Assembly: GCA_963971425.1 (NCBI GenBank)
Contig: OZ020515.1
Location: 32,499,856-32,563,855 of the forward strand
Length of the DNA stretch: 64,000 nucleotides
Reading direction: 5' to 3'
Source: Bryoerythrophyllum caledonicum
Taxonomy: Eukaryota; Streptophyta; Bryopsida; Pottiales; Pottiaceae
Shown: positions 13,753 through 61,491 of the stretch, in pieces
How positions within the stretch are numbered: position 1 is the first letter of the stretch
How the letters are laid out: every line of letters starts with the position of its first letter
Translations under genes and position numbers: made by a program
Notes under the pieces: model-generated
Database searches by the model: none
Told to the model about the DNA's origin: nothing
The model's input: only the letters and a program-made list of their open reading frames with translations

Positions 13753-16700
13753 TCACGCAGATGCAGATGAACTAGAGGCCGAGGAGGAGGATAGGACATG
13801 TCTTTTGACGTCTGCTTCTACATCTAGAAAATGGAGCACATGGGAATCATATTGCCGATTGTGGGTATGGATTTGAGGAGACGAGGTAGTCGCCATTAAG
13901 TCTGCAACATGTGCGGCCCAAGGTGGTAGTAGGAAATCTTTGGTTGGGGAAGCCGCCCTGGCAATCAGACTGCAGAGTCCATAGAGAAATTAGGTTATAA
14001 AATGAAGGAATTCTTCACAGAGAATGGCAAAGAATTTCAAATTTAACAACTTTGAACTTACGTACTTAGTCTATTTCTTTTAACGATCTTGCGGATAGGA
14101 ATGTCTTCATCTAAGAGAGTTGCCATTGGAGGCGCCTCACTAGGGATGGTCGAATCGACTGATGGCGATGATAGGGCCTTCAACTTCTCGTTGAAGACAA
14201 CGGTGTCGCTTTCCAAAGCAACGATATGACGGCCAGACATCTGGCATGCGCGCACAGAATTTCCTGCAAAGGAATAACAAAATTAGTTATGACTACAACT
14301 ATCTACCTTGCTTAAAAAATGAAGAAGACTCACCGATAGAGGCAAACGCATCTAGAACAACCGCTTGAGGCTGTGATAAAGCCTCGATCAACATGTGGAG
14401 GAAGGTAGCGTCCTTCTCACGTGGCCCCCTCCATGGAATGGGTCCGCACATGGACTGAGATTCGGCAGAGGTGAAATTGAAAAGAACATCGGATTCTTCC
14501 ACGTCCATTCCCATCTCACAGAGGGCGTTGTTTTTATTGAACTTGAAGTTGGCAACTGCCACATTCTGTCGAACAAGGAACAAAACACGGAACCTACGCA
14601 ACTGTAATTGCAATGCACGGCAAATCCAGTAGAGACAGTTAGAATGAGATATACAATAAAATCAACAAATGAAACATCTGAAATGTAAGGAGGATCGGTT
14701 AAGCGCACCTTCAGCAAAGCATCAATGTGCGAGGTAAATGAGAGGTCGTTTATTGCCCACCAGTCTCTGAGGATTTTGAAACCGTATCCGCCCGCATAAG
14801 ACAGCACATCGGACCGGATAGAAGGGACCTCGGGCAAGAAGATCAGCATCCCGCCCTTGTCGTGGAGGAAGAAATCTGAAAACTCAAATAAGCTCTCCAC
14901 GACCGGAATCGAATACTCGTTCCAGGTTGGAATATCATTCGTATGCTTCGAGATGGATGGAATCGGCATCCCGTCAGGGATGTCTGCCAAGATCAAGTCG
15001 AATCCACTGTGAGGGCAATGAGCTGAACGACCTGTACTCCAAGCTTCCTTCCTCGCCTGGACAAGCACAAGTCAGTAATAGTGTTTTGAAACAATGGCAT
15101 TGGGTGTTTTGTTACAATGAAGAGGATAATTTATAGTTGTAGTTGTAAAACAACCCTATTCTTTTGGGACAACAACAATCAATAAGTACAGGAAAAGAAA
15201 TAGACATATCTTGGAATTGAGATGTGAAAAACTAGCTTAAGTACCTGGAGGACAAACTTATTCATGGCAAGAAGCGTGGAATGCTTGTCAGGGAAAGAAT
15301 CCATGATCATAGAGATTGATGAGTTGTCTACATAGACACTCGCTGGTGGAGGTGGCGAGGTTCTCCCAGCCTTCACCGTCATGATAAGCATGTAAGAGTT
15401 CTGTGGAAGGGGACTTGAAGCGTTCGAAGCTTCGGGTGCTGATCGCTTTGATCTCCTCCGAGACTGCAAGGGCGCCACTAAGGACTCTGAATCCAACATC
15501 TCAATGTCATCAATACGAGCGGTGGAGGCCAAAGTGATCAGCTGAGCATGTTGTGAGGCTAGTTCCGCCTTCGTGGCGACAAGTGCTTTGGCCACTTCCA
15601 CTACTGCAGCCTCCAATTCAGCCTTCGCGGCAGCCTCTGACTCTACTTTTGCTTTAGCAGCAACTTCAGCATCAGCGGTAGCATTTCTCTTGGAGACACG
15701 GGTCTTCTTGGCACCAAGTTCTGTAGGAACAGAAGGAAGTATTGTTTCCGTACCCAATAGATCTGGCTGGACATTGTTTCGGAGTTCAACATCAAATAAA
15801 GGAGGCCTCTTAACGGGACAATCCAAATACCAACCACAACGCTCCCAATGCTCACGCCCCCATGTCTTCATGATATCATCAGTGAACATGAGCATATCAC
15901 TAGTCTTCTCCAAGTAATTGGAGAAGGATGGTGGAGTACGAGAAATTGCCTTCCTCGGGAATAGAATGTACATGAAGTACCTGTAGAGAGTCCGATTGAT
16001 GGCTTGCTTAAGTCCCACTTGCTTCTCGGGTGGATTATTCTTATGAACTCCCTTCCCCTTAAATTCGTTATGGAAGGCAATATCCCAGAGCTGCACGCGC
16101 ATCTGTTCAACGTATTCGGGTATTGTTTGGATCGGCATACCATGCTTAGGAAAGTAGTCAATATAAACCTCCATGTCAGATAATATCCCTTGAAACAATG
16201 ATTCAGTCTCCGCTGAAAGCTGCAATTACCATTCAAACAATGGTAAGAAGTAAAAGCACAATGAAATAACACTATCTAAGAATGGTAATTCAGATTGTAC
16301 CTAAGCCCACCATGTGGCCTTGTGAAGCCATTCTGGAAAGTCATGGTCTGAGAACTTAGACTTTGGAAAGCGAAGGTCTGGGAACTTGTTCACAAAGGGA
16401 AGATGGCTTGTTCTACCTCTCCAACCATTTCACCTTCATGCTTGGGACCATAGCGGAGGTGGTGAGGTAGTAGAGCTTTTCCTGAGACATCTCAGGATCA
16501 TCTTCGCGGTCCTCATAGTGGATTCGAACTTGTTGAAGAAACTCGGAAGTGTGCTTGGGGTCAGCAATTGGCAATTGCTTCTTGAGCTCGGATGTTAGTT
16601 GAACCTTCACTTTCTCAATTGCAGCTGAAACAAAGTCATGAAACTTGGCAGAAGTCCAAAGAGAGTCATCTGGAAACTTCTCCTTGAATTTTTGATTAGC

Positions 16701-19141
16701 ATGAGCAGCTGCCTCCCCCAACTCTTGCTACAAAACCAAGCAAGGTGTCCATTCAACAACACTTCGATCAACACACCAACAATTGAAGTAGGGAAAAGCA
16801 TCCACTAGAACATTGATGAAAAATGCAAGTATATTGAGTAGATGTTATAGAAGAGCTAGAATACCTCATAAAAAATTGCAATTAGAGACTTGAATGTCAA
16901 GGTATACCATGTTCTGTCCTTGAACTTCTGCTTTGCCTCGGCAGCTGAAATTTCATCCTTGCTCACCAAGGACTCAAAATACTCAAGTGGCTGCCCGGCA
17001 ATGCCTTGAATGCGATATAATTTGTGGACAAGGTTCATGGTGACGTGAGATTTCTGGTTCCTCCTGCAAGCTCAAATTCATAAGTTAGAATTTAATTTCA
17101 CCGATTAACTGAAAGCAAATGATAATCATACGAGTTAACCTAGTGAAGAGCTGTTAGTAGAGGAGCCACTTGACCCTCCACATTAAGGATAATAGATTCC
17201 ACCGCATAATGCCACTTGGCATCGTTGGAATGGTCTCGATTGATTATTGGCATCCAGTCTTGTAATCTGTGGTTCCCATCCCAAATATGAAACATTCTTC
17301 CAGAAAACTGCTTTAAATCCTCATCCATCTCCAACTCAATCTCAAATTGCTCATTTGCTTTAGTCCACAATGGACTCCAAGAATCCATAATGGCTTGGGT
17401 GATAGTTACCATCTTGCCCTCGTTGTCCTCCATAGCCACGTAGAACACACCGTGGCCATCCATTTATCCCGTGCTCACAAAATGTGCATCCAAACCCATC
17501 ACATCATTCTTCAAAGAAGGTCGAACTACCGGTAATGAAATCAATCTGCATAGAGGAATATTTAACTTTGGTTTATGCCTTGGTGTAAATCGGAGCCTTT
17601 CCAACACAAGGTTAGTATTCACAGATTCTTTGATGACCAGTTCATCCATCTCCTTTCCAAGCTTGTCGGCGGACATGAGCTTCAAATTCTCATCTGGGTC
17701 CTCCAAATCAATGTCTGCCGTCTCTATCAACGGCTGGATTTCTACAATATCATGGAAAACCACATGAGATTTTGAAATCAAAATGGAACAAAACTAAAGT
17801 ATGTCAAATCACATTACCAATACCTTCGTTCTCCTGATCATGTTGAGTGGACTCTAGCATCTCATTGAAAGAAGAATCTGAAATCATCACCACGGAAAGA
17901 AGGGTGGTGAATATCTAAATGGTGCGCTAATGGTTCACTCAAACTTGAAAAATAAAAAATCAACATCCCGTAGGAGGTGCAGCAGTGGGCACCTCCCTTG
18001 CGGGTTGCGACTTTGGAGCAAGGTGGGCAACCCGTAGGGGAGGAGGCGACAGCTGCAGGTCTTTGCGGGCGGGGCTGTCAACATTGACAAAGCCTTCTCC
18101 GAGGGGGTGCCGCCGTCGGCACCCCCTCGGAGAAGGCTTTGTCAATGTTGACAGCCCCGCCCGCAAAGACCTGCAGTTGACGCCTCCTCCCCTATGGGGT
18201 GCCGACCGTGCTCCAAAGTCGTGACCCACAATGGGGTGCCGACAGCGGCACCCCCTTGCGGGTGGCGCCGCAGATATCGATAGAAAAAATAACGAATAAA
18301 CTCAAGGATTGCAAAGAAGAGGAGGAAATACATGAGATGCTTACCCTCCATGTCGAGTCTTCGAGGATCGCAACTTCCCTCAGTCTCGAGGCTGTGGGTG
18401 TTGCTCTTTCGATCAGATTGAAGCCCTTTGTCCTCGGCTGCGATAACTTGCGTCCAAGACTCACGTTAGATTATGGATTTTGTGAACCCATCAAGCAAGC
18501 ATGTGAGTGCAATCGGTTGCGCACTATCGTGAAACCCTACACCCAATGAAATTGTTCCTCCTCTCTTCTTCACTGCAAATGCCTCGAAACCCTAAGCAAA
18601 TAGAAATGGTTCTTCCTGTCTACCTCATTTCGGCAGCAATAAAACCCTATTTTCTCAAAATGGCAGGTAAGGGCGGGTATGGGCAGGAACTCACGACGAG
18701 ATTGGACGGGAACAAGACTTGACCAGATGTAACAAAAGACTATTGACTTAACGGCTTTAGGGTCTTTTCAGCCCTTGACATCTTGGACCTCGCTTTAAAT
18801 GATAAAATCACAAAGACAAATATAATTTGGGCTTGAATTAACTCACATTGATTGCAATCCATGGCCGACCTCGGGGGGGTGCAAATTCCTTTGCCGTTGA
18901 ATTGCACATCGAAGTTGGGTTGCTTATCCTCCGTAACTTGCTCTGCAATTCTCTGAAGCTCCGGACTACTCGGACAACTCATAACTGGACTCAAGTCAGA
19001 TGCATCCTCAAAATTTAAAATCCTTGCGGTATTGCCAGAATCGACCTCCCTCGGCATCGACTTCTTCTCTCTCATTTGCCTACTCCGTTTTAGCGTCTTT
19101 GCATCACTAAAGTACAAAGCTTTTCTCTTTTGCCTTTTCAT
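13753..19141 (-). pseudogene. ParB-like/N6-N4 DNA-methyltransferase-like fusion gene, locus A
   Basis: Eleven exons can be placed with GT-AG borders: 19141-18847, 18437-18345, 17877-17824, 17741-17132, 17063-16865, 16727-16301, 16219-15245, 15056-14709, 14601-14334, 14263-14062, 13901-13753. The start is ATG MKRQKRKALYF; a basic/acidic leader follows. Exon 4 carries a ParB/sulfiredoxin-like domain with the motif IWDGNHRLQDW. A middle region of unknown type and an Ala/Glu/Lys-rich coiled coil (exon 7) follow. Exons 8-10 form a permuted N6/N4-type DNA methylase: FDLILADIPDGMP stands where DPPY is expected, then WRGPREKD and VLDAFASIG split by an intron, then GRHIVALESD. In-frame stops lie at 17466-17464 (TAA), 17142-17140 (TAG), 16415-16413 (TAG) and at the end of exon 6. 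A frameshift in exon 6 and probably one at exon 11 also occur. Exons 8, 9 and 10 have exactly the same lengths (348, 268, 202) as at locus B. Probably a pseudogene. Confidence 0.8.
17999..18233. repeat. Foldback: near-perfect inverted repeat with about 115-bp arms
   Basis: The two arms meet at about 18,116 in GGGGTGCCGCCGTCGGCACC. The inner 70 bp or so of each arm match perfectly, including CTGCAGGTCTTTGCGGGCGG and GTCAACATTGACAAAGCC with their complements. The outer parts match with a few differences. It lies in intron 2 of locus A, is far more GC-rich than its surroundings, and gives near-identical translations on both strands because it is a palindrome. Confidence 0.92.
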
Positions 19142-19227
19142 AATTTGTGAATTATGATTCTACTTGCATTCAACTCCTCTTTCACCACCACCTTTAAGGG
19201 GCAATTCTTTCAAGGTTTCAACGTAGT

Positions 19228-19851: not shown

Positions 19852-21000
19852 TCAACTCTTTCAATGTCGTCTTTGTTAGAATTCAATTCACTTTGTCTTT
19901 GTTAGAATTCAATTCAATTGTCCTCTAAATTATGGCTGACCTTGAGGATGAACTGAGCAATAGTGTCTTGCTTCGAGGAGATGGTCCTGGAGTCCCTGTT
20001 TCATTTGTAGTTGGTGAAACTGGCTTTGCTTCTGTGAGTGGAAGTCGTCTTGCATTGAGGTTCAAGATCTGTGAGGAAACGGTTCATGTTGACCGGGAAG
20101 TGTTTGATGTAGTCACGGGTGAGCTTACTCATTCAATTGCTCAGATTAGTACTGGCCGTGGTGAGGACGAGATTTGGTTGCTGTAGGCAGGGAAATATCG
20201 AGCTTATGGCAGGTTCGATAGCATCAATGGAACACCCTTACCTTCGTTTACGCCGCGTCTGTCATCTAGTACTACTGAGGTCACACCACTGCTTTCAAAG
20301 GTCAAATTAGAGCCAGTTAATGACAATGTTTTTGTTTTGAGTGACGACTCTGATTGCGAGTGCCTTCCATTGAATCCTAGCATTACTTCGTTTCAATCCT
20401 CATCTCTTTCTTCTAATCCTCGTCCATCGTCCTCTTGCTTTGCTCCCGATCCTAGATCTAAACCCCCTCTCGCACCATTTGCCTCGTCTCCACTCAGCAT
20501 AGTAGATTGCCTCCAAAATTTGAGTTCCCGGCGTAGATCAAAGTCAATCCTTAGTAGAATAGATTTAAATTCCATCACCATAGAGAAAGTGGACTTTTTG
20601 CCTCCCACTTTTGATGGAGACATCGTGTTTGAACTACCTCCTCTTGGAAACACTCTTCCTTCTTCCAAGGCAGGCCACCTCCATGGTATGGATAAGAAAC
20701 ATGATGGTCATGCTTGGACTCGTACCGTCACTTCTCACATCAAGTCTGATCATCAGCTCACGTTCCGGATGTCTTCTTGCTTGGGACACCTAAGGTGCAC
20801 TAATAGTCTCTGCGACTATCTCAAACGTCCCAACGAACATCTCCTTCTAATGAGACAGAGTGGGAGGGTACCGCCTCCTCTTCATTTCTCCTTGGCTGTG
20901 AGTCACCTTTAAATTCTTCAGTCCTTTGTGCCATTTGTCTCCTTCCCCCGACATGCATAGACAGTTGTATGGCAAAAGTCTATTATGTTGTGGGACAGAG

Positions 21001-21300
21001 CACTACTAGGAAAACAGTGGAAATATGACTACGGCCATATGACTACAAGCTCCTTTTGGTTGGAATGCAGTCATCAGTAACAACTTTGATGACTAAAATG
21101 GCTGTAGTCATCACATGACTATGATTCTAGTCATATTTTCTCGGGACCTCAATCGGAACTCCGTAGGGAACGTATTTTTCCTGTTATTATTTCCGTAGGC
21201 AGCCATAGGACTAGATTTAGTCGTTATGTGACTACGGTTTTGGGCAGCAATATGACTACATATAGTCATTATTTGACTATGCTTTTGGGCAGCCAATTGT
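21001..21300. promoter_or_regulatory. Left TIR and subterminal repeat region of the CACTA element
   Basis: After the 30-bp TIR, words such as ATATGACTA, TAGTCAT and GACTACAG recur in both orientations every 10-40 bp to about 21,295. In En/Spm the TNPA protein binds short subterminal repeats to bring the ends together; these motifs are the obvious candidates here. Confidence 0.75.
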
Positions 21301-22327
21301 GAGAGGGTTTTAGAGTGGGGCCTTTATGATATTAATTCAAATTTATATACATTTGTTTATGTTTGATCCATTCTTTCAATTAGACTTTTCTTTCTTTAGT
21401 TTACACTCTTTTTGGGAATTTATTTCGTTCCTTTAAGGTTTTAATCTTTTCTATATTGTATTTTTAAAACTTCTTTTAAAAAACAAACTAGCCTGTGCCT
21501 TTTTTTAATATTTATTCATTCCATAATTATTTTTCTTCCTAAGTTTTCATATCATATTATCAATTCAGATGTCGTGGATATTTTTTCCAGTTACCCCTTT
21601 CACTGTCTACAATCACAGCAGTTCTCTTTGCACCTTGTTCAAGTACTTGTCATTTATATACTTTGCGGTGATGTTTTGTTTTTCTCTTTTTTAAAATGGT
21701 AATTTTATTTTGACTACAACGCTTCTTCCCCTCATGTATTCTTTGCACTTTCGTTTACTCTACCTCCCTACTTTTTACCAGTTTTTTTTTTTTTTTTTCA
21801 ATTTGTGCCCATTTCACGTCCATGCTGAATTTTTTCACAATAATTGTTTTAGATTTGCTTTGATGACTAATCTTGAATTTTAATTTGAGGTAGTGCACAT
21901 GCATGTTCTTTAATCAGTCAATGACGTTGAAAATAATTATAAGGCAACTCCAATTGTATACGTTGGCAATGGAGAATTAGCAACGTGGATTGAGCTTGTT
22001 ATTGCACTTCAAAAACTACTCTTAGACACTATGGACACTAATGTCGTACGAGTGATTTGTATTAGTCATGCATGTAAAATCACTGACTGAGTATAGTCAA
22101 TGTGATTATTGAGACCAATGCTACTGCATATCATAGTATGTTTCCTACTTGGTCTACTAATATGATGGATTATGCCATGCATGCTACCTCATTTTCTATT
22201 GTGATAGCACATCATGTCCCTATTCTACATCCTCCTCTGCAACAGCCAAAGATTGGTTTAGACCTTCTGTAGTTAGTCTCCTGCCAGATCTCAAATCAGG
22301 AGTGTCCATTTCCCTTTCCATAATAGT
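21301..22327. other. AT-rich non-coding part of the CACTA element
   Basis: About 1 kb between the left subterminal region and the stop codon of the transposase gene. It is T-rich with a poly-T run at about 21,783-21,800. No exon is seen. It probably holds the transposase 3' untranslated region. Confidence 0.5.
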
Positions 22328-25300
22328 CTATGGAGGCCGTAGCCCTGCATACTCCTGGTCTCTACCTAACCGCACACTCTGCAGTTCATGTCTTCCGCCA
22401 TCACTTGACTCGACTCTTGCACCGCGCGGCTGACGTTGCAAAACTATCTTCCATCCACTGTTCTCCTCGTCGTCTACAAAAAATACTTGCTGTATGTGAA
22501 GGGGAAATGCAAAGGAGTCCGCTGAATATGGAATCAACCGATCAAATCTGAACAATGTAAATCCATATTCGTCACATTTCATTGTAGCCCGAGCTTCCCT
22601 CTTGTTTGCTTGTGCCCATGTACAATACAACACCACCACTTCAAATTTCCCGTAGTCTACGCTGATAATTTCGTCCACCCACCCCACATACTCCACATTT
22701 GTTGTCGTCAAGTTCCTGTCACTAGAACTAGCGCGACAAGATTGGAGAAATGTAGCCGCTACTCCACTGTCACATGTGAATATATCTGCTTCTGCTCCTC
22801 GTACTCGTATATGAGTGCCGTATGCATACATTGCCTTGTATCCCTTTGCTTCTCGTGTAGGAGGCAGTAACAGTGCGAGTATATCCCCAGAGACATCATT
22901 CCCCATCGCAAGGTCTTCAGATACAACAATAGTGAACCACGTATTGAAGGTCTCCTGTCGTATTTCTATGGGATAATCAATGTGTCTTCTCCTGCTTCGT
23001 CTTCGGAATTCTAATCTGGCCTCTTTGCATTGACTCATTTCACTCGCATACCGCCTGCAGTATACAAATCACCTCGAGTACGTTATTTTTCCTAAACTGT
23101 AAGAATAGAACCTCATCACCTCTTTTAGTCATCTGTTAGTTGACTATACTTGGTTGCTTCCTTCACTCTCTTGACTGTTTTGTCTGTCTATTGCTAATAG
23201 CTAGTCCTTAAATCTAAAATGATGACCACACGTAGTGCTTTTTTAATCTTATATTACTATGTAAGAATTATATTGCTTGGGTGCATACTCTCTGTAATCT
23301 TGAAGGATTTTGGCGTTGTTAAGCACGAATTCATGAATCCATTGTTGCAGTTCCATCGACAATATGCGTCGTCTCTCCTTCCCTTGCAATACTTCGTCAT
23401 TCATACTGGGCTCCTTTTTGTCGTCCCATACACGACGTGATGTCATAGAACAATTTTGCATGTACTCAGTACAGAATCCAAGCGCCTCCTCCATGACGTA
23501 CCCTCTTGCCATCGACCCCTCCGGTTGTGTTCGTTGCCGTACGTAGCCCTTCAACATTTTCAGATACCGTTCCACAGGGTACATCCAACGCATGTGGACC
23601 GGACCACAAGTGTCTAACTGTTGCACTAAGTGAATCGGCAGATGTGACATGACATCAAAAAACGGCGGTGGGAAGACCTTCTCCATCACACACATAGTGA
23701 CTGCTGTTTCTTCCATCAAGTCTTCCATTGTTGAAGGATCTACAGACCTCGCACATAAACGCTGGAACACTCTACTTATCCAAATTATTGCTGCCCGAAC
23801 TTCCTTTGGTAGAAGTGTTCGCACACATACATGAAGAATCTGCTGCATCATTATGTGGTAGTCATGTGACTTAAGGCCACAAAGGTCTCCGTCAATGGTT
23901 ATCCTCTTGGACAACTGCCCCACGTAATTGCTGGGAGTCTTTAGGTTGCGGATAGTTTTGATGAATTTCGCCTTCTCCACCTTTGACAGCACGTAAGGAG
24001 GAATTGGTAGTATGATGGTATTGTTTCCAGCATGTTGAGGGTGGAGTTCAGGACGTATTTTAGCCTCCTGAAGGTCAAGTCGGACTTTTAATGTATCTTT
24101 CAATCCCCATATTGTCTTCATGATGTTTTCGCACAAATTTTTTTCGCAGTGCATTGGATCTAGCACATGGCGGATCATGAGAGACTGCCGAATGTGCGAA
24201 ACATGAGTGTTAGAACATTTACAAACACTCTTACTACGGCATGTAGTCGTACATTCGGATTGCATGACAAAAAATAGTCATACCAGCCTTGCTCAGTCAC
24301 TACCTAGTCGTTCATTTGGTTTGCATGACTAAAACTAGTCATATTATCCTTCCTCAGTCACTACCTAGTCATGTGCTGAGTGCAGAATTAGAAACGTATA
24401 CTCAAATACATTACTTCTGTAGTCACATAATAACACAAGAGCAGGGGAACAAATAGTAAGGTCTTCATTTCATATGGTAGACTAACCTGCCAATACGGAA
24501 GACTGTACAGGGCTGACAACCTCTTCACTCCAGTTTCATGCACTGGATCATTCTCCCCCCCTTCTCTGATCTCAATAGGTATATTCAGCCATTTTTCCCT
24601 TGCTTTAGCATGGCGCACAATATCTCGACCAGTTAGAGAGCGCGGAGGAGCTCTAATTTCCTCCGTGCCATCAAATGCTCTTCGGAGTCGTCGATACGGG
24701 TGATTCCTTTCTAGGTATCTCCGATGTCCCAAATATACATTTTTCCCCAGTGCAGTTGATCTACGAGTACTAACATTCGGGCCACATTCAATACATCCTC
24801 TATAACCCTTTGTCACCTGCCCAGAGACAAGACCATACGCAGGATAATCGTGAATGCACCACATCAATATTGCTTTGAGGATGAAATTCTTGTTTTGACT
24901 GTCATCAGAGACATCAACAACATTCACACCATGCCAGAGTTGCTGCAGTTCTTCAATAAGTGGGGCCAAGTACACATCTATATTTTCCGATGTGACGCTT
25001 TCTTTTCCAGGGATGAGGAGGACCAGCATTAGAAAGAAACGTTTCGTGATTAGCCAGGGAGGAATGTTGTAGTTCAACAATATTACTGGCCATGTTGAGT
25101 GGCTTAATGATTGGTTTGAGAAAGGATTTACACCATCTAGAGCCATCCCCAATCGTATGTTCCTCTTCTCAGCCGCAAATTCCGGATAGCACGCATTGAT
25201 GTGTTTCCAAGCTTTTGAGTCTGGAACACTCTCCATATTTCCGCTCATGTCTTTTCTTGATGTGTGCCACTTGTTTAACTCTGCGAACTTGGTACATCGA

Positions 25301-27183
25301 TACATTCGCAATAGCCGGGGGATAAGTGGAAAGTGCCTTAGTATCTTCACTGCCCTTGTACTACTGTTTGATGTGTACCGTAGCTCGCCACATTTTGGGC
25401 AGGTCAACGCATGAGCTAACTCTCCTCGGAATAAACAACACCCATTTCTGCAGGCATGGATTGAGTTGTAATTCAGCCCCAAATGGCATAGGAATTTCTT
25501 CCCTTCCCAGTGAGATTTGGGCAGTTTATTACCCTTGGGGAGAAGTTCGCTGATCACACTCAAGATTTCATCTGCACAAGTATTTGAGACTCCAAATACC
25601 GTGAAGCAATTGAATAGGAGAAGCACTGCAATTAGAAGCTTTGTCTGACAACCTTCGTAGAGTGGAATACTTGATTCCTCAATGAATTTTGGGAGGCCTC
25701 CGTCATGGATGTCATCGTCCTTGAAACCAAAGTCATCTTCATCCTCATCGGTTCTGTCAGTAGTAGCGGGAGGGATATTGTCGTATCTTTCAAGGCACTC
25801 TGTGATCATTCGGCCCACATTGAATTCTGCTGATTCGGTTTGCGTTATCGGGTTTTCCTCATGCCTTTCGTTTGATTTGTGAAGGTTCTCTCTATCTTGC
25901 TCTATTTCGTACACAAAACCAGTCTACTCAAAAGAAATTTACAACCGCCCAATTATGTGTTAGTATGTGACGTTTCTTGCAAGCTTACGAGTATGTACAC
26001 AAAGTATCCTCATTGTAGTTATTCATCCATATGTACAATAGTCATGTATTTCATAAATATGACTACATATTGTCATCCCAGTAAAAATAGTGACTATGAT
26101 ATAGTCATCTCTGCAAACACGGTGACTTCTATATAGTCATATCTGCATAATTAGTAACTACAGCTAGTCATCTCTGCAGAAATTATGACTACATTTAGTG
26201 ATTGACATTATTTAGCAAACAAAGCAATCACTGAAGTATTACAACAGTTTCTTGTTGTGTTTTTCCAAATCCTTACTGCAATCTAAACGACCTATCAATT
26301 AAAAGGATAATATGTGAAAAGTTCCTCTCCGACTTCAATGTCACGTGTTGCCATAGTCATGATATACCCCCAAGTTTTCGGATCCCATGGGGTAGGCAAT
26401 GACACGTATTCCCAAAGAACATTCCCTATATGCTCTCTTCCAATAGAACTGTTAATAAACCCTGCGACATTTCCATTCAACACATCTCCATCTTGGTAAA
26501 CATTTTTCTTCACACGTAATGCATACTTTTTAAATCGTTGATCTGCCTGACGCTTACGGTGGAACTCTGCCTCTGATAAGAATTTCCCAACAAATGGCAA
26601 TAACTCATCACCAGATTTGGCTGCTTCCATGGCATATAGGCCCCATCCCATGTGTGGATGTATTGACACTCTAACCTCCCACTTTCGATTCCAAAATGTG
26701 AAGGGTTTGAGCTTTGGGATGGGGCCTATGCACCAGTGCCCATTGGAGCTCTCTGTCTGAACAATATCCACAGACGCTTGCTGGTTGGGATATAAACTAC
26801 TCTCTCCGCTCCAATGAAGCGGTAGAGGGGCTAAAATTACAAACTTTAATGCAGCAGCTGCTGCGGCCAGTAGAAAAGGCCTCTACGTTTCCTACATGTA
26901 TCATTGCAACAAAGTAAGACAGGCTTATTGGATCCCCACATATGTCATACACAACATATCAGACTAAAATTGTAAGATAACATACCAGTATGGATGTCTT
27001 GAATTCAGGATCTCGCTTGAACTTCCGTAGATGTTTGCGGATGGTTTTCCTTAATACTATTCTTGCACCCATGCATTTCTTACATGGGCAAGGGTAACTT
27101 GTTAGACCTTGTTTGTCTGCTTCTTTCTCTTCAATTTCCCACAGTTGCAAATGCAAAAGATCCTCTCTGGATGTCGGATCCAT
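22328..27183 (-). CDS. TNPD-type CACTA transposase, intact, 4 exons
   Basis: Exons are 27183-26986, 25923-24487, 24184-23289 and 23054-22328, giving 1,086 codons in frame with no internal stop. The start is ATG MDPTSREDLL. Exon 1 holds a transposase-associated zinc motif (YPCPCKKCMG...KTIRKHLRKF). Exon 2 and the start of exon 3 hold the Transposase_21 (tnp2) core, including HACRNGCCLFRGE, CPKCGELRY, MALDGVNPF, CIHDYPAYGLVSG and, across the splice, RHVLDPMHCEKN. Exon 3 also has the DUF4218-type segment HMRWMYPVERYLKMLKGYV. Exon 4 holds the DUF4216-type segment YVGWVDEIISVDYGKFEVVV...DEYGFTLFRF. This is the usual domain order of plant CACTA transposases. The protein should cut the TIRs with a TNPA partner. 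Intron 1 contains a separate SET-domain exon. Confidence 0.93.
26295..26756 (-). CDS. SET-domain exon inside transposase intron 1
   Basis: The exon starts after TTGTTCAG| and stays open for 154 codons to a TGA at 26,297-26,295. It encodes an almost complete SET (lysine methyltransferase) domain: GWGLYA near the N-terminus, DELLPFVGKFLSEAEF, GNVAGFINSS where most SET proteins have R-F-I-N-H-S, and ATRDIEVGEELFTYYPF at the C-terminus with the catalytic-type Tyr. No post-SET cysteines are present, and His of NHS is Ser. Acceptor phase is 0, the same as that of transposase exon 2, so splicing from transposase exon 1 (ending 26,986) would join the zinc motif to the SET domain in frame. It could be an alternative terminal exon of the transposase gene or an independent nested gene with further upstream exons. 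Activity and target are unknown. Confidence 0.82.
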   Translation of the reverse strand, partial: TESSNGHWCIGPIPKLKPFTFWNRKWEVRVSIHPHMGWGLYAMEAAKSGDELLPFVGKFLSEAEFHRKRQADQRFKKYALRVKKNVYQDGDVLNGNVAGFINSSIGREHIGNVLWEYVSLPTPWDPKTWGYIMTMATRDIEVGEELFTYYPFN

Positions 27184-29389: not shown

Positions 29390-29449
29390 GATGTCATTGT
29401 TTGTCGTTAGCTCTTTCTCCAGGTGCAGAAAATTTTTTAGTGAAAGCCA

Positions 29450-51044: not shown

Positions 51045-51182
51045 GAGTTTTTACCTTCTTATTCACTTGTAATTATTAAAAATCAGCCCTGAATAGTTAT
51101 CAATTTTTTGAATAGTTCGTAGACAAAGAAGGTGGCTAAGATTCATAGTACAACTTGATGTCTCCTTCTTTATGAAAGGTGG

Positions 51183-52435: not shown

Positions 52436-52790
52436 TGGGGACGAAGCTATTTTGCGTGCCTTGAGCCGTGAGCCATGAGCCGTGAGCCTTCATTCGCGAG
52501 CCTTAAGCAATTAATTTGGACCGTTTTTGGAAAAGAATATCATTAAAGTGGAAGTAAAAGTAAACAAAAAGTTGTTAAAAAAATGAAAAGTAAAAAAATG
52601 AAAAGTAAAAAAAAAGTAAAAAAAAAGTAAAAGTTTTCCATAAATTAACATTTCAATTGAAAGTCTGAACCATCATCTGAGGATAAGGGCCTACTATCGT
52701 GAAATTCCTTAGAAAGTATGGGTTGTTGTCCAAATAATGAATTGTCATGAAGATGATAGGTACCCTATGACCGTGTAAGGGTTACACAAC
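52436..52790 (+). repeat. Dispersed heptad repeat, copy 2
   Basis: Starts near GGGGACGAAGCTATTTTGCG, then GAGCCGTGAGCCATGAGCCG heptads, and ends near GGTACCCTATGACCGTG. Matches copy 1 (12,228-12,570) in order and orientation with substantial divergence in the middle. Confidence 0.7.
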
Positions 52791-52885
52791 ATATTGTAAT
52801 AGAAGGCGTATCTATATCATATGTAGTATTAAAAACTAGGAAATTGATTCCACACTTCACTAGAGCAGACGAAGAAGCCTTGAAT

Positions 52886-53701
52886 TTAACCCATAAAGGA
52901 CCAAGACATTTTCCCCTCAAAGTCAATCCAAAATTGCCATTTTCAACGCATTCAACACGAAATGATACAAAATGTTTTTTCTGAAAATTTAACCGTAGGA
53001 TCTTGTACTATAGTTGTATGAGAGTGTGTGGTGAAAAGTTTGGTAAGTTTGACAGCACGGATTGAAAGATATCAGCCTTTAAAGTGAGACATAATCTCTT
53101 TTTGAGGTCATCCTAAACACCTTCTACAAACTTCGACCACCTTCTATGGCAACTTTTTGCACTACGGGCCGTGAATTTATTATGTTGGCTTGAAAAGGAT
53201 CATGTTAAGCACATATGCACCAAATTTTAGAAGTAGAAGAGGTGTAGAAGATGTCCTAAAAAATCCTACTTTGCAGCTATGTGCTGAGAATCAACAATAC
53301 ATTTTATATTTTGCATATATCATATCCTTCTCAAATTTTTGAAATTCACAAATCCGTACGGTAGATGCAAAGATCTCAATTTCTTTTCGAAGAGGACATT
53401 TTCTTTCTTTTATATGGACAAAAACTCGAATTTCTATTGAGTTTAGAAGTTATTAAAGTTTAGTGACAATATTTGTGATATGTCACACTAAACTGCTGCA
53501 CTATTTGTATATATAAGTGAAAATAAATTGTAACTTTTGAACCGTAAGTCGGAATTCTAAGAAATTTGTGTCTACGCAAAGTTCATCAAAAGTTGTCCAT
53601 TCAATAAAAATTCTCAGAAAATAATGCCTAGAATTTAGAACGTGGTACCTTACCCAAACTCAAAATGTCCCCCGAGGAGACTTTGGTCCTTTATGGGTTA
53701 A
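52886..53701. mobile_element. piggyBac-like MITE, 808 bp
   Basis: TTAA (52,886-52,889) then CCCATAAAGGACCAAGAC; the right end as reverse complement is CCCATAAAGGACCAAAGTC followed by TTAA (53,698-53,701). The first 16 bp of the TIRs match exactly. It shares interior words with the copy at 54,838 (for example GCACGGATTGAAAGAT). Confidence 0.85.
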
Positions 53702-53785
53702 ACATGCTTTTACTCAAATATGACCTAGGTTTCTTAGAAGATGTGAAGCTTCCTTGACCCTACGCCTCTTCAGTAAGGGAGGTCC

Positions 53786-54142
53786 CTAATATCTACATGT
53801 CATGAGCACTGATTCGGAATGAATAGGGCGGTGTATAGGCATGTCGGATCTTTCTTCCTCTCCAATGGAATAATCTTGGTGTTTGGAAGGAATGCTATAT
53901 GCAGTACTCTTCTTGAGAAGAATTGTTCCCTCACAATCACACTTGGGCTCTACAACGACCACTACATTGTCTTGCTTCTCCGCATTGCTCGCATCGGCCA
54001 TACCTGTCAGAAGTGCTTCATCCGTACAACCTTGCTCATCCTGATCTTCCCTATCAAACTCGTCTAGCAATTGCTCTAGCAACCCTGATGGGATGTAGAC
54101 ATCTACGAGGGTGACAATCTCATCTTCACAAAATTTAGCCAT
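53786..54142 (-). CDS. Hypothetical small protein, 118 residues
   Basis: ATG 54,142 opens a single-exon frame (MAKFCEDEIVTLVDVYIPSG) to a TAG at 53,786. The protein is acidic with a Leu-rich start (LLEQLLDEFDREDQDEQG) and a Val-rich centre. No domain is recognised. It may be a small gene, an exon of a larger one, or a chance frame between mobile elements; composition is the only argument for it. Confidence 0.3.
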   Translation of the reverse strand: MAKFCEDEIVTLVDVYIPSGLLEQLLDEFDREDQDEQGCTDEALLTGMADASNAEKQDNVVVVVEPKCDCEGTILLKKSTAYSIPSKHQDYSIGEEERSDMPIHRPIHSESVLMTCRY

Positions 54143-54837
54143 TTATACAAAACTAGTACGTAATGTTCCTCTAATACATTGTTGTAAACCGTCACACTAG
54201 CAATTAAGGGAAGGGGATGCAATCCTTATAGGTAGGGAGTCTTTTAATTTGAGGTAGACATTTATTTTAGGTCAAACCAATGTAGTACAAATGGAAGGAT
54301 CCTTACACCACAACTAAGGTGGGCCAATAAAACCTTATCGATTATGCCACATGGACTTGCAAATTAGTTAAATGTTAAAAAGGAACACAAACAAGACTGA
54401 CAACAATCCTAGGAAGTTGAAAATCAAGTGTCGGGGGGAGGGGCGGCGACACTCCAACATAGAGTGTTTTTTTTATCAACATCACGTCCACCGGGTGCAC
54501 CTACCTTGTGGAAATTTTGTTGACGTGGACAACACCACGAGCGGCGGTGCTATTTTCATTGAAAGCAACCGAAGAAGGAAACAACTCAACACTATCTTTG
54601 TTAACCCTGAAATCCTAAACCATGTCCACGATTCCAGGGATTGAACTATCTCGAACATCGCCACTAGCTACCTGCTATAATACAATAACATGGAAATACA
54701 AGAAGGCAAAGGGAAAAAATTAACATAGAAGGTGACTAAATCTAGGTGAACAAAATAAGTATGTAAAGCGGCCCGACGGGGGCGCTGATAAGCAAGGCTG
54801 TTGAGGCCTGTGAGGAAGGAAAATGAAGACGCACAAT

Positions 54838-56051
54838 TTAATCCCTAAGGTACCGTGAGAGTTTCACATCAAAAACACTTCAAAACTGTTTAATTCAAAT
54901 GCAATGAATCAAGAAGGAAAAAAAAACTTTCATTTCTAGTTTTGACCAAAGGCTCTCAAATATGACTTAATAAGCAACATACTCACAGAATTTCATAAAC
55001 TCTGTCCGCACGGATTGAAAGATTATAATGTTGAAAGTAAAACAAATGGTTCATTTCCTTTCTTGCGTTGAGTGGATCAACAATGTTTGACTTCACTTGG
55101 TGTCAAATATTTGCACTACTCAAAGTATAAATCCATTACCATTGTGTTGAGCATGATGTTAGGGAAAAGAAGATTTTTTTAATGTGGAAAAGAAGAAGTT
55201 TTTTTGGTACCGACAATGTGTGACAATAGAGTTTTCATGAAAGTACTTAGGGTTTAAACCCTGACTGTCATCCCAAAACGCTGATAGGGGTTGTACACGT
55301 GAAAGTCCACTTGTTTTTGAGAAACATGGTGGTTTGGTTAACTTTGGGATTTATTCCATAAATTATGGTCCTTTGTCAGCCAACCAACATGCTACAGGGT
55401 TAATCATCTAGGCCCAATCGCCGTCCAAACATAGATGCAAGGTGGCATTGGTGACTCCAAGTTACCCAATTATAGTGGGGGGTCCCAAGGCCTCGTTGTA
55501 TGGGGACCCACAAAGCCCTTGGGGGAGATGACATGTCGGTTGTCTCTAAGGCAATTAGTGTAGGGAACCACTTAGATTAGAAAAGTACTTATCCTTGGGA
55601 GGGGGAAGTAGTTCTATTACACTAGCCTATGTCCCGTGGCCATATGCATAGTGAAGAGAATGAACAAAGTTCACTATATTCATGACAATCTCCTTTGGAA
55701 ACCGGAGTTCTTCTTCTTCTTGCTATTTTTCAATAAAGACAAAAATGTATTTTTACATTATGAAGGGAAAAATATTACTTGGTAGAATTGAAAATCTCAC
55801 ATTCAATAGAGAGTCCATTCAATAAAGTTTTTTGAGGTGCCCAAAGTGCCTGCTCGCCCCATTTCAATTTTGAAACCCTACAACTTTTTCATTAAATGTC
55901 GGATTTACTCAAAAATTGATCTCCCACTGAGGACTTAGTAATATCCTTCTACAGTAAATCTTTCAAAGTAGATGGTTGGAAATTGACACCAAAGAAACCT
56001 AACCAAACTTTCCAGAAGCCTATTTTTTATACTTGGTCCTTTAGGGGTTAA
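54838..56051. mobile_element. piggyBac-like MITE, about 1.2 kb
   Basis: TTAA (54,838-54,841) then TCCCTAAGGTACC; right end as reverse complement CCCCTAAAGGACC followed by TTAA (56,048-56,051). Termini and interior words tie it to the 52,886 copy. No transposase remains. Confidence 0.7.
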
Positions 56052-56666
56052 ATTGGTCTTGAAACCGTGGCATATTAGAGTACAATTCTAGATGAACGCA
56101 CCATGTATTTCACGGCTTATTTTATTTGTGGAGGAACTCATATGTTGAGATTTTAGTATGCTTTACACTTATAGTTAGAACGGGTGGTAGTAGAGATAAA
56201 TTGTCAATCCATTTCCTTGCTGAAATTCTGTCAAAATTATTTGACTTTCAATAAATTGCAATTCGTTGATTGGCATAATATATATTTCTCGACATCATTA
56301 TAAAAGGTCATCATCTCCATTAGCACTCAATTATTACATGTGTTCTTCATGAATTGTTATGGATTTTATTGTATAAACATATGTAAGGACAAAGATTTGA
56401 AATCGAATTGTGTAGGTTGGAGTCCCAACTCTATTTCGACCAAGTTATGTCTTATAGTTACCATATTTATTTGACCAATGATAAGGCTTTAAATGACAAC
56501 CCTACAACTTATGCAAACCAACTACAACGACAACGGCTTTAGGTTGAGTAGAGCAAAGAACAAGGAAAAGAAGGGGTATCGAATGAGAGTATTAGCAAAG
56601 CAAATAGAATATCTACATTAGTGGTTGAAAAATATTGCAAATATCTTGGATTATAGGAATGTTTGT

Positions 56667-59600
56667 TTAACATGACATGTCCTCAGAGCTTCCGCACGAC
56701 GTAGAAATTACATGCAGCTCTACGTCAGCCTCATCGTCAATGAATTGAAGAACACGCAGATCAAGTGAACGTTTTCTACTTTTAGAACACGGGGATGATG
56801 CAGCTGCCTGCCTAAGGGCCTCTTCTGCATGCCATGGAGCCATAATGAAGTCTCTAGACGGGGAACAAACATTGGCCATCATTCTGCAAATGCCACAACC
56901 AAAGTAGAGGAAACGTGAGGTGTCATTAGAGGTTAAAATATGAAACATGAGAACGTGACATTAGAGTCCACATTACTCTACACATAGGGCTAGAAATTTT
57001 AGCACAATAAGGTACAAACTTTGAGAATATTTCCAAATCAAAGATGGTAATTGATTGAAAGATAGAAGGAGCTTACGTACTGAATCTATTTCGCTTCGCC
57101 ACCGGTTGGATTTGGATCTCGTCGGCAAGGCAGGGACTAATGGACGAAGACGTAGTAGGCATTGGAGTATCACGCGGAACTGCACGAAGAGGCTTCAACA
57201 TGGCCTCAAAGATGTCATTGTCTTGCTCCAAAGCCACAATGTGGCGCCCAATGTCCTTGCATGCCTGAATAGAATTTCCTGACAAAAATGAAGTTAAGAG
57301 AATTGTTATTGTTTAAAATCGTGGATGCAAATTTAATGGAATAAAGCATATCAAAAGTATTACCTGTGGACGCGAACGCATCAAGGACAAGTGAGCCCCG
57401 CTTAGTAAGAGCTACAATGAGCATTCGGAGAACGACAGTATCTTTTTCGCGGGGACCCCTCCATGGGACGTTCCCATTCATAGACTGCGACTCCAGGGAG
57501 GTGTAATTGAAAATAACATCAGAATCAGAGACGTCGACGTTTAATGCCGAGAGTGTCTCATCTGGCGCAATGATGAAATCATCCGGCTAAACTACCTTGG
57601 GCACGAATAATTGAACCCTAAACCGCCGTGACTGCCAAAAATGAATGATAAAAGTGAGAAGAGTGTACAGAAGTTGAGAGGAATGTGTAGCAACTAAAAA
57701 TTGATGATAATGAAGTTAGTCTGTTACCTTTATTTTAGGATCCACACTCGAATGCAGCGGAAGCTCGTTTATACCCCACCACTCCCGCAACATGTAGAAA
57801 CCGTACGCATCGGCGTAGCTCAAAATATCGGTTCGGACCTTGGGACATTCAGGTGCAAAGGCTAGAATACTACCGTGACGGTGAAGAAATTCATGCCCAA
57901 ACTCGAAAACAGACTCAACATCCTTCTTGTTGTAGTTGTTCCATGTAGGAACGACAGAAGGCTGTATGGATATTGAGGGTACGGGCATCCCATCAGGGAA
58001 GTCTCCGATGATGAGATTGAAGCCACCGTGCGGGCAAGCCTCCGAACGTTCCAAGGTAGTGGTCAAAGCTTGTTTCTGCAAGTAGGATTAAATCGAGGAT
58101 TAAACCATGCATGGAAACAAAAGAACAACAATTGAACATTGGTAGTCTTACCTCCATGCAAAACTTGTTCATGTTAGCTAGAACCGGGTGCACTTGCGGT
58201 AGAACATCCATTATCTTTGTGAGGCTCGTGTTCTCAATAAGCGTTGAGGACACGAAGTCCACGCCACGCTGTTCGGTGGATTTTCCAGTGGCCATCTTCC
58301 TCTTCAATCTTTTGAAACCCATGGATATAGGACTAGTCGAGTCTATAAGCTGAGTATGAGTAGCGGGGGAGATAGAGAAACCTTGCTGAGTCTCGGGGAG
58401 TGTCGCAAAGAAGGATGCCTCTTGAACATCATGATCATCGTTGCCATCGAAGGACAAAGCAGCATGTACTTGTCGTCGTCTTGGTGCTGAGTCTCTTGCT
58501 GCGAGCTGTGCTTCCAAGGCTGCTGCTTTGCGTGATGTCGTTGCCTCCGCCGCATTTGCCGCCTGTAGCTTCCGCGCCACCTCTTCTTCGGCCTCTTTCA
58601 ACTTCCTAGCGACCTCTTCCTCAGCCGCTTTCTTCTTCTTTGCATCTTCCTCGGCTGCCTTTTTCCGTGCCCCTCTAGTCATCTTCATGGGTTCTGTCAC
58701 AACCGAGACCAACTCTGTTCCTGCTAGAGCAGGCTGAATCGAATTCCGTAGTGGAATGTCAAACAAAGGAGGTCAACTCTTGGGACAATCTAAGTACCAT
58801 CCACATTTCTTCCAGTGCTCCCTATCCCAGTCTTTCATATTCTCCTCAGTGAACATGCAGCTGTCACTAGTTGGATCCAGGTAGTTTGCAAAGAAAGGGG
58901 GAATTCTTGAAACTGCCTTCCTGGGAAGCAACACATAGTGGAAATACCTGTATAAAGTTTGATTGATAGCCTCAGCCAAGAATTTTTGCTCATCTGGAGT
59001 GTTGTTTTTAGAGACACCCTTGGTTGCCAACTCAGTGTTGAAAGCAATCTCCCAAAGCTGAATGCGCATCTGCTCAACCCAGTCAATAATAGTTGGAATG
59101 GCATCCTCATCAACTGGGTGATAGTTGACAGTCTCGTTCGGTTCAACCAATGTTCCATGAAGAAGATCGCTTGTTTCAGAAGAGATCTGAAATCCCACAT
59201 AAGGCATAATTTTAAGACACATGAAAGTATCAAACATGTGAAAATTGAAAAAGGTATCTAAGTCAACACACCTGTGCCCACCAAGTAGCGCGAGTTAGCC
59301 AAATGGGGAAGTCGTGGTCGTTGAATTTGGTCTCAGGAAATATTACAGCTTTTCGAACAGAGGGCTTCATGTTCCACCGCTCAAGCCACTTAACCTTCAT
59401 CGCTGCGGACATCGTGGATGTTGCCAAGTAGAACAACTTCTCTTGCGACATCTCCCGATCATCTTCCCGCTTTTCGTAATGGATTTTAACCTGATTGAGA
59501 AAATCAGGAGTGTGCTTTGGATCAGAAGGTGGCAACTGCTTCTTCACCTCAGTGACATAGTCCTTCTTCACCTTCTTCACCTTTTCCAAAACTTCGTGGT

Positions 59601-61491
59601 GCAAATCCTTCATGTTCCACTGAGCTGTCTTTTCTGGATACTTCTCAATGAACATTCTATTGGCATGCGCTGCTGCTTCACCAATCTCTTGCTGTACATT
59701 TCCACGAAAGATGTCAGGAATGAGACACAAAAATCATTAGAAAACCCTATACAAGAGACTAGAGAACTACTAGAAGATTCTCCAACACATAGTGCCGCCA
59801 ATTGTACCATCCTTGAAGGGGGTTAGAGGGAGGAACCCCTTGTCACTCCAACAGTGGCGCCGCTAGCGGCACCCCTTTTCAGACTACCCCAGGGTACCTA
59901 GCAGCCTCTAAAATAGTTAGTGCCGCCAGCGGCATTTACTCTACAGGATGCCTTGAACAAATCACTTGCACCTCTAAATGGGTGAGTTGCTGGCATCACT
60001 CCTTCTAAAGTCTGTCTCAAAGAAGCCATTTATACCAGAAAAAGAAGGTGCTACCAGCGGCACTCTGTATAACGGATGCCTTGAGCAAGAAACTTGAACC
60101 TCGTAAAGGGTGAGCCGCTGGCAGCGCTTCCACGAGAGGCTGCCTCAAGAAGCCATCAACACCCCAAGGAGAGGGTGCCGCCAGCGGCACCCTCTTTATG
60201 GGATGTCTTCAGCAAGACACTTGCACCTCCAAAATGATGAGCCACTAGCAGTTCTACCACTGGAGGCTGCCACAAAATAGCTTTAAGCATTCTGTAAAGG
60301 GAGTGCCGTTGGCGGCACTCCCTTCAGGAGCTGAAGATGGCATACATCTACCTCCACAAGCCATTTTCAAGGAGAATGATCAAACATTTGACTAATAAAA
60401 GTTGCCAGATAAATAAAATGTAGATCTAAGAAGTGAATAGTACCTGATATAGTACTCCAACAAGTCCCTTAACAGTAAGCGTGTACCATGTTGGAGTTCT
60501 ATCCTGTTTTGCAATCGCATCATCAATTTCAGCTTTGGTCACAAGGTTCTCAAAATATGAGAGGGGTTGCCTAGCAATTCGTTGAATTCTATAAAGCTTG
60601 TGGACTAGATTTGATTTCACGTGGCACCTCTGGTTCCGCCTTCATATGGAGTGGGTGGAGTTAGAGGACAAAATAGACAAATTTAAAAATATTTAAAATT
60701 TCAAGAAATCAAAACTTACCAATTGACTTGGTGGAGTGCAGTTACGAGAGGTCCTGTCGAACCTGTTGGAACATCCAAGATAATCGACTCCACTGCGTAA
60801 TGCCAATCTTTGTCATCACCGTGGTCTCTATTGATGATCTCCAGCCAAGCTTTGAGACGATGGTTCCCATCCCAAACATAGAACATCTTACCCGAATACT
60901 TCATCAAGTCTTCATCTGCGAGCAACTGTGCCTCAAACTCTTCATTCTTCTTCTTCCACAATGGACTCCATCCAAGAATAATCTCCTCGCTAACGTCAAG
61001 TGTCTTTCCCTGATCATTTTGCAATGCAACATAGAAAACGCCATGACCCTCCATGTATCCGGTACTCACGAAGTGAGCCCCTAAAGAGCTGACGTCGTTT
61101 GAGAGGGGCGGCCTCACCGCCAATACTTCCTTCATTCGACACAGTGGGATATCAATCTTGGACTTCTTCCGTGGCTTCATCCGTAGCTTCTCCAGAACAA
61201 GACTTGTGTTCACAGATTCCTGCAATACTAGTGTATCCATCTCTCTCCCCAAATCCTCAGCTGACATTTCCTCCCGAAGATCATCATCGACGTTCTCATC
61301 CTCCAAATTGATCTCATTGTCTTCATCTTCATTGTGATTGACCCCTGCATCTAGAGATTGGTTAAACAAATAGTGGAGAATACTGAACCGCTTCCAACAA
61401 TTTAGTTGCATTTGATACCTGAATTTTCTCGAATTGGAGGTTGCTCGTCGTCTACTTGGTCGACTTCGCGTTCCACGCCCTCAAGCTCCAT
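56667..61491 (-). pseudogene. ParB-like/N6-N4 DNA-methyltransferase-like fusion gene, locus B
   Basis: Nine exons: 61491-61419, 61344-60720, 60639-60444, 59691-59272, 59186-58152, 58075-57728, 57631-57364, 57278-57077, 56883-56667, together 1,128 codons with consistent phases. Exon 2 holds the ParB/sulfiredoxin-like domain: LAVRPPLSND, then FVSTGYMEGHG, then VWDGNHRLKAW (about residues 182-191). Exons 3-4 and the start of exon 5 are conserved with locus A but unrecognised. Exon 5 ends in an Ala/Glu/Lys coiled coil. Exons 6-8 are the methylase-like part: GGFNLIIGDFPDGMP (about residue 808, where DPPY is expected), ADAYGFYMLREWWG, WRGPREKD, VLDAFASTGNS (about 980) and GRHIVALEQD. Only two lesions are seen: TGA 58,775-58,773 and TAG 57,589-57,587, each where locus A has a sense codon. 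The first exon begins after an AG, so an upstream exon like those of locus A is probably missing or outside recognition. Confidence 0.82.
59840..60330. repeat. About 127-bp tandem repeat of GTGCCG-type hairpins in intron 3 of locus B
   Basis: Palindromes with core GTGCCG-N4-CGGCAC or decayed forms lie near 59,860, 59,930, 60,052, 60,118, 60,180 and 60,306. The stronger hairpins at 59,930, 60,052, 60,180 and 60,306 are spaced about 122-128 bp. Between them recur GATGCCTTGA(A/G)CAA and ACTTGCACCTC-like words, so the whole unit, not just the hairpin, is repeated. Confidence 0.85.

Follow-up and report, generated by a model that had tools for sequence, protein, structure and literature searches.

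We found that a 64,000-nucleotide stretch of the moss Bryoerythrophyllum caledonicum (contig OZ020515.1 of assembly GCA_963971425.1, positions 32,499,856 to 32,563,855 of the forward strand; hereafter the window) holds genes of two related transposons that fit the Mutator-like type, elements A and B, each of which encodes a protein with a methylase fold of altered active site. A Mutator-like transposon with an accessory gene of this kind is what is new here. We consider it probable that the product is a nuclear, DNA-binding accessory protein of the transposon that either counteracts silencing or assists transposition. Few examples have been worked out of how plant transposons beat silencing, VANC being one, and the question is still open. 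A preliminary description, made from the sequence of the window alone, had interpreted the two genes as a plant gene family joining a ParB-like domain to a DNA-methyltransferase-like domain, possibly as part of a large mobile element; the mobile element and the methylase-like fold have held up, while the plant-gene-family reading has not and the ParB name is unproven. Coordinates below are window positions unless a contig or locus is named.

Genes A and B lie within transposons

Element A extends from 12241 to 37420 (minus strand, by the orientation of its methylase-like gene), measures ~12.3 kb without a nested CACTA insertion, and shares its ends with copies on contigs C1 and C4. It is flanked on the low side (12231..12240) and the high side (37421..37430) by the 10-bp target-site duplication CATGAGAGGG, and its terminal inverted repeats contain GGTGAGC-type heptamer repeats at the low end (12241..12310) and GCTCACC heptamer repeats at the high end (37350..37420), the inner limits being approximate. 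Element B, also on the minus strand, occupies 52439..64000 within the window and has its other end at the equivalent of position 71117 (C2:32570972), 7.1 kb past the window; its target duplications, CCTAAGATGG and CCCAAGATGG, match at 9 of 10 bases. The two elements have related inverted ends with the core GCTATTTTGCGTGCC, one base of which differs at the low end of element A. The terminal inverted repeat is imperfect, with ~60 bp that align gap-free. The A-type copies on C1 and C4 match each other at 99.9% identity over 4.5 kb and at 98.9% over 7.8 kb. They end abruptly at identical points, have inverted ends that start GGGGATTGCTATTTTGCGTGCC and GGACGAAGCTATTTTGCGTGCC, and are flanked by their own 10-bp duplications, CTTCGTGTCT and GGCGGTCGAG. 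Ends with a 10-bp duplication were thus present in all four copies examined (exact for C1, C4, and element A; one mismatch for element B). Since copies are ~99% identical, we conclude that they moved recently. The suggestion that the genes belong to a large mobile element is borne out by these ends and duplications and by the dispersed copies described next.

We searched the window's own assembly (437 Mb, 894 contigs) for further copies. The terminal core had 470 exact copies (226 forward and 244 reverse), compared to 0 + 0 for a reversed-pattern control. Exons 2-5 of gene B gave at least 205 matches; these were tallied per exon, and a single copy may account for several of them. The matches listed were spread over 13 large contigs and a single small contig. 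They included a B-like group of 86-99% identity as well as many of ~45-65%, the latter including a set of near-identical copies. The methylase exon gave at least 150 matches, and the majority of those listed were free of stops. The preliminary description had called for a genome-wide count of intact members; alongside these matches, the C4 copy is open over the eight exons checked (1077 codons and a final stop), and the C1 copy has one internal stop. The family provides, within one genome, a frequent companion gene with a bacterial-type methylase fold and a conserved altered active site.

Among the first 100 of the 470 core sites we found 24 inverted pairs less than 30 kb apart, and 19 of these hold a listed gene match. 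Of the 67 gene matches listed for that region, 43 are found no more than 20 kb from one of the listed ends, compared to a mean of 2.5 and a maximum of 8 in 1000 random placements. The five pairs with no listed gene match span 5.9, 8.0, 8.0, 16.5, and 17.5 kb. Two of them, at C1:41949839-41957836 and C2:14262397-14270388, have near-equal lengths of ~8 kb, and together with the 5.9-kb pair at C2:514891-520828 they perhaps represent a sub-family that lacks the methylase-like gene.

The two genes are ancient relatives in decay

Gene A (13753..17887, minus strand) is degenerate. Its eight recognized exons, 17741-17132, 17063-16865, 16727-16301, 16219-15245, 15056-14709, 14601-14334, 14263-14062, and 13969-13753, join at GT-AG boundaries, and a first exon at 17887-17824, read by eye, is probable. 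Gene B (56667..61491, minus strand) has nine GT-AG exons, at 61491-61419, 61344-60720, 60639-60444, 59691-59272, 59186-58152, 58075-57728, 57631-57364, 57278-57077, and 56883-56667. Exons 2-9 agree between A and B in length and phase, exon for exon (610/625, 199/196, 427/420, 975/1035, 348/348, 268/268, 202/202, and 217/217 nt), with exons 6-9 having the same lengths. Amino acid identity per exon is 41-63%. Over 1026 codons the proportion of synonymous differences (pS) is 0.81, which is saturated, and that of non-synonymous differences (pN) is 0.33; by codon position, 652 differences over 1031 codons fall at the third, 401 at the first, and 288 at the second. A saturated pS beside a low pN indicates that the resemblance is not due to chance, and by this sequence comparison A and B split long ago and were under constraint for most of the time since. 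We rejected a local duplication, as self-comparison of the window showed likeness only in the exon pieces and the terminal repeat.

The encoded proteins run from an acidic leader through a segment with DGNHRL, a long middle, and a coiled coil to a methylase in which the catalytic region precedes VLDAFASxG. The preliminary description had this domain order right, as it did the two loci on one strand with exons of matching length. It missed that gene A has four in-frame stops and one frameshift and gene B two in-frame stops. Both genes are located in transposons, and the true units reach beyond 13753-61491. If the decay was neutral, the stops would correspond to ~0.034 (A) and 0.017 (B) substitutions per site. 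Restoration of the reading frames by RNA editing was rejected because some of the stops are of the wrong kind and nuclear genes are not known to undergo such editing.

Another reading, close to the one first proposed, is that A and B represent an ordinary plant family of ParB-methylase architecture, acquired anciently from bacteria or phages and duplicated locally, and old in this nucleus. The conserved introns, the saturated synonymous and low non-synonymous divergence, and the relatives in ferns described below would all suit such a family. We nonetheless find this account extremely improbable, and the label misleading, given that the many copies are dispersed, that near-identical ones are present on different large contigs, and that the element ends and target duplications already refute it at both loci. 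The shared introns would be old because the transposon family is old, as the pS and pN between A and B suggest.

The methylase-like domain has an altered catalytic motif

Exons 6-8 of gene A (14062..15056, minus strand) and gene B (57077..58075, minus strand) encode a permuted amino-methyltransferase fold, supported by profile matches, in which DIPDG (A) or DFPDG (B) stands in place of DPPY and is followed by VLDAFASIG (A) or VLDAFASTG (B). Exons 6-9 of B matched the Pfam family N6_N4_Mtase with E = 7.6e-6 (26.5 bits, the curated cut-off being 26.7), and those of A with E = 2e-4. Further matches were to the NCBIfam model CcrM (E = 1.5e-6, with a score far below that model's cut-off), a PHROGs DNA methyltransferase (E = 3.7e-8), and the solved methylase DpnA (E = 6.6e-4); the Pfam, CcrM, PHROGs, and DpnA matches all span the motif of the S-adenosylmethionine (SAM) type. 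We built a profile from A, B, and three Adiantum relatives. It aligned to a profile of nine phage methylases across 226 columns with E = 7.7e-11, a score reached by 0 of 40 column-shuffled decoys, and DFPD was placed onto DPPY in the alignment with the phage profile. The segment preceding the SAM motif was sufficient on its own for a match (E = 0.0036, 0 of 40 decoys), and with another set of phage methylases the E value was 4.4e-6 (0 of 30 decoys). The earlier designation of the domain as DNA-methyltransferase-like is therefore sound as regards fold and motif order. These profile comparisons indicate that the fold is that of a permuted (beta-type) DNA amino-methylase with a consistently different catalytic signature.

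To follow this signature across the family, we compiled 52 rows: A, B, and a further 50 loci, made up of the 30 best matches (one of which is B again) and 20 diverged loci picked by hand. The motif position was readable in 45 rows, with five rows gapped at that position and two unaligned. D-x-x-D-G was present in 44 of the 45, as DFPDG, DIPDG, DLKDG, and close forms. Neither DPPY nor any other (D/N/S)PP(Y/F/W) catalytic motif was found in any of the 45 readable rows, and the fern relatives have DFPTG or DFPIG at this position.

One alternative is that the protein is an active DNA amino-methyltransferase that writes N6-methyladenine or N4-methylcytosine on the DNA of the element, with D-x-x-D-G being a tolerated catalytic variant. 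The permuted layout with its SAM-type motif is what would be expected of such an enzyme, the near-invariance of the motif position (44 of 45 rows) implies that the position matters, and ParB-methylase fusions do exist in phages (PMC12704722). We regard an active enzyme as rather unlikely, however, since DPPY is absent from every readable row, both prolines are lost in 13 of the 45 (DLKDG, DLQDG), and the aromatic residue of the fourth position is missing from A, B, the readable copies, and the fern relatives. For the same reason, that DPPY was kept in 0 of 45 rows, the idea that the protein modifies DNA is doubtful.

The N-terminal domain is conserved, and its ParB identity is unproven

Exon 2 of gene A (17132..17741, minus strand) and of gene B (60720..61344, minus strand) encodes a conserved N-terminal domain with the motifs WSPLW and DGNHRL. 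Across 35 loci scanned, some of which are overlapping views of one copy, a G-x-H/R-R box following a hydrophobic strand was found in 27, as exact DGNHRL in 25 of these; the remaining eight loci do not reach exon 2. The preliminary description had assigned this domain to the ParB/sulfiredoxin (Srx) fold. We compared family profiles by hhalign with 12 phage and E. coli ParB-type domains, 14 de-replicated ParB-methylases, a YbdM set (47 loci, one omitted as too short), and merged sets, and we also used scans against Pfam, PHROGs, and the Protein Data Bank. Pfam gave no ParB match for the family sequences, and ParB_N had no match genome-wide in a search that was positive in 10 of 14 known control genomes. 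In PHROGs, a ParB family ranked first for B at the DGNHRL box, with E = 0.35, and with E = 0.073 in a short search, in which the best match for A was a different family and the fern sequence had none. The ParB-set profiles gave E values of 0.009 to 0.58, compared to 0.004 to 0.1 for the same query against methylase control profiles. Some of the ParB alignments were sensibly ordered, placing WSPLW on the first ParB box and DGNHRL on the G-x-H-R box. Shuffled decoys reached the score in 9 of 40 and 28 of 30 cases in some comparisons and in 0 of 20 to 0 of 30 in others.

We do not claim ParB by profile, as the methylase control profiles score equally well or better. The box is conserved, the profile comparisons do not set the domain apart from controls, and a ParB/Srx identity is, on this sequence evidence, possible and unproven. 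Among the observations first made on the two genes, then, the loci, the exons, and the methylase stand, and the ParB/Srx assignment does not. A likeness of the 65-aa DGNHRL stretch of B to the abscisic acid receptor PYL5 (PYL/PYR family; E = 0.0092) was judged to be probably due to chance because a five-sequence family profile lists no PYL.

Purifying selection between copies suggests value to the element

We estimated the ratio of non-synonymous to synonymous divergence (dN/dS) pairwise between copies over ~120 codons of the N-terminal domain. Among pairs with measurable synonymous divergence the ratio was ~0.03-0.1, with dN and dS values of 0.007/0.28 (loci L148 and L151), 0.025/0.26 (L148 and L159), 0.018/0.17 (L151 and L159), 0.018/0.26 (L151 and L163), and 0.028/0.27 (L176 and L177). 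Very close pairs were higher or uninformative (0.017/0.03 for L174 and L175, 0.010/0.06 for L173 and L178, and 0.003/0.01 for L178 and L179), and in four distant pairs dS was saturated or near it. The comparison of copies indicates that the gene was kept functional during the spread of the family, and the strong purifying selection on the N-terminal domain argues that the protein is useful to the element.

These values bear on the possibility that the methylase-like gene is a passenger captured from the host in the manner of a Pack-MULE, where MULE denotes a Mutator-like element, and has no role for the transposon. MULEs often carry captured host fragments (PMC6446971), and five of the 24 inverted-end pairs have no listed gene match, three of these being merely ~6-8 kb long. 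A passenger is very unlikely, in our estimate, in view of the presence of the gene in 19 of the 24 pairs and the low dN/dS between copies.

Palindromes within the elements are candidate targets of the protein

We counted eight occurrences of the palindrome GTGCCG(N)4CGGCAC in the window, all of them inside the elements (four in each) and none in the other 63% of the sequence. In element A, palindromes start at 18107 and 18236 (18107..18251, non-coding) and at 35002 and 35129 (35002..35144). In element B, two start at 60175 and 60303, in a 127-bp tandem repeat within intron 3 of gene B, and two more at 61874 and 62568, upstream of the gene (60175..62583 overall). Some of the palindromes in the window fall in the 127-bp tandem units and in an inverted repeat of 118 nt. 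Together, the C1 and C4 copies have eight palindromes, all inside the element, compared to none in 11.5 kb of flanking sequence, and 24 of the 30 partial loci L148-L177 hold 92 in total. We consider these element-borne palindromes candidate targets of the protein.

We propose that the protein, with its conserved N-terminal domain (perhaps ParB/Srx-like), long middle, and permuted amino-methyltransferase fold, most likely acts in the nucleus, where it would bind non-coding repeats or the ends of its own element. Once bound, it may either protect the element from silencing, as VANC does, or aid transposition. Because D-x-x-D-G replaces DPPY, classical N6-adenine or N4-cytosine methylation would be less likely than binding of SAM or DNA without methylation chemistry. 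A VANC-like anti-silencing role is perhaps the closest analogy: VANC proteins act on their own elements by binding to non-coding parts, their targets form tandem repeats, and silent marks are removed (PMC10398659), and an anti-silencing function of VANC from Arabidopsis VANDAL elements is also described in PMC5735166.

A more specific version would make the protein a transposon-coded recognition and anti-silencing factor assembled from prokaryotic parts. ParB reads parS; here, a ParB-like domain would read the palindromes, the D-x-x-D-G fold would use SAM to modify DNA or to sense or block its modification, and sub-families would thereby escape host methylation. We regard this version as unlikely. 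With palindromes in the elements, recently moved copies at ~99% identity, and at least one copy open over the exons checked, the question of how a plant transposon beats silencing is directly testable.

The superfamily label rests on ends, duplications, and layout

Reading from one end, the element has a divergent transposase-like gene, a small open reading frame (ORF), and the methylase-like gene, which reads toward the other end. The transposase-like gene of element A (plus strand) is split by the nested insertion into a first part at 19929..21000, which in the window copy is broken up over at least two frames, and a remainder at 33842..36818 with a SWIM-like C-x-C...C-x-H finger. The C1 copy has transposase-like open frames of 491 aa and 690 aa, the longer of which continues past the stretch examined, and the transposase-like ORFs of A-type and B-type elements are 68-71% identical. 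MULEs have 8-11-bp target duplications and may have extra ORFs such as mudrB, vanB, and vanC (PMC6446971). As the transposase domain was not detected by Pfam, the MULE label rests on the ends, the target duplications, and the layout; by these sequence features elements A and B fit the Mutator-like type, with reservation.

Several observations weigh against the reading of the family as Mutator-like elements with a nuclear, DNA-binding accessory protein. Pfam detected no MULE transposase domain in the transposase-like ORFs. The SWIM finger was found only below threshold, where the C1 transposase frame ends (Pfam E = 0.47), and Pfam reported none in the transposase ORFs of element B. Of the 100 listed ends, no more than 44 have a listed match to the gene within 20 kb, both lists being incomplete. 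There were no palindromes in L182, which is the rest of element B, or in six of the 30 partial loci (L170, L172, and L174-L177).

The undetected transposase domain would also be accounted for if the gene were an accessory gene, with the same role, of a DNA transposon from another superfamily, an explanation that differs from the one we prefer in label only. We think it quite unlikely, since the 10-bp length of the duplications, the inverted ends, and the presence of an extra ORF next to a transposase-like gene all agree with MULEs (PMC6446971).

Relatives and comparable systems

A search with B against a database of 5.8 billion proteins, in which the best 7,999 candidates were scored, returned one match, a hypothetical protein of the fern Adiantum capillus-veneris (P0001; E = 1.2e-7, 21% identity over 48%). 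With the fern protein as query (best 7,997 candidates scored), three proteins of Adiantum nelumboides were found besides itself. A search with a three-row alignment gave no matches and missed its own third row as well, so that it carries little weight. The Adiantum proteins, P0001 to P0004, are sequence relatives of the family: WSPLW is present in all three models spanning that position, the catalytic position reads DFPTG or DFPIG, and PTWN is present (as PEWK in P0004). They differ in looking like partial gene models and in having an altered DGNHRL box where one is present (EGNHHL, ERNYQT). Methylase-like or ParB-like plant proteins, perhaps including these models, may be transposon genes. 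Scanning viral contigs twice with alignments of the family produced 47 and 254 pattern matches, none of which was confirmed as a relative; a viral origin of the family is not supported.

Our literature search found neither a described plant ParB-methylase nor a methylase-bearing MULE, and a wide-ranging survey of MULEs (PMC6446971) has zero occurrences of the string "methyl" in its main text. The elements resemble MULEs with accessory genes (MuDR with mudrB; VANDAL/Hiun with vanB and vanC) in their inverted ends, duplications of 8-11 bp (10 here), transposase-like gene with one or more extra genes, and many copies in a plant genome, and differ in that the accessory protein has a permuted amino-methyltransferase fold. 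Fusions of a ParB-type fold to an N6_N4 methylase are common in phages (PMC12704722; PMC5512222), and the word "plant" does not occur in the main texts of these two papers. Such fusions, as in Streptococcus phage Javan486 and bacterial Bce_0392 (PMC5512222), share with the A/B protein the permuted methylase class and possibly a ParB-like N-terminal segment. DPPY is present in each of the three phage proteins examined, which have lengths of 388-428 aa, whereas the A/B protein has ~550 aa between the two parts, D-x-x-D-G instead of DPPY, and a ParB part that is unproven. The retrotransposon-encoded methyltransferases of dinoflagellates and charophytes (PMC5890265) are likewise DNA-methylase-type proteins of eukaryotic transposons; those are C5-cytosine enzymes of retrotransposons, in contrast to an amino-methylase fold, probably without the usual chemistry, in a DNA transposon.

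Other features of the window

The small ORF of element A lies upstream of gene A (18743..19159, minus strand), is also present in the C1 copy, and has a look-alike, recognized by eye, in element B (L182:1553-1930, minus strand). Both element types have a basic MREKK stretch in this ORF. It has no significant Pfam match, and its placement resembles that of a third MULE gene. The insertion that splits element A is a CACTA (En/Spm) transposon of 12,841 bp (21001..33841) with the 3-bp duplication GAG and ORFs for TNP2, DUF4218, DUF4216, and a SET domain. The SET-domain ORF (26298-26882, Pfam E = 2e-9) is on the same strand as the TNP2 and DUF genes of this transposon, which possibly carries a histone-methylase-like gene. 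Outside the elements, a fragment resembling the end of a Ty3/gypsy integrase is located at 5137-5817 (plus strand), with a Tf2-1-like SH3 domain (E = 1.8e-17) and a chromodomain under the cut-off. Tandem arrays are present at 2773-4252 (190 bp x 7.8) and at 63264-63999 (163 bp x 4.5).

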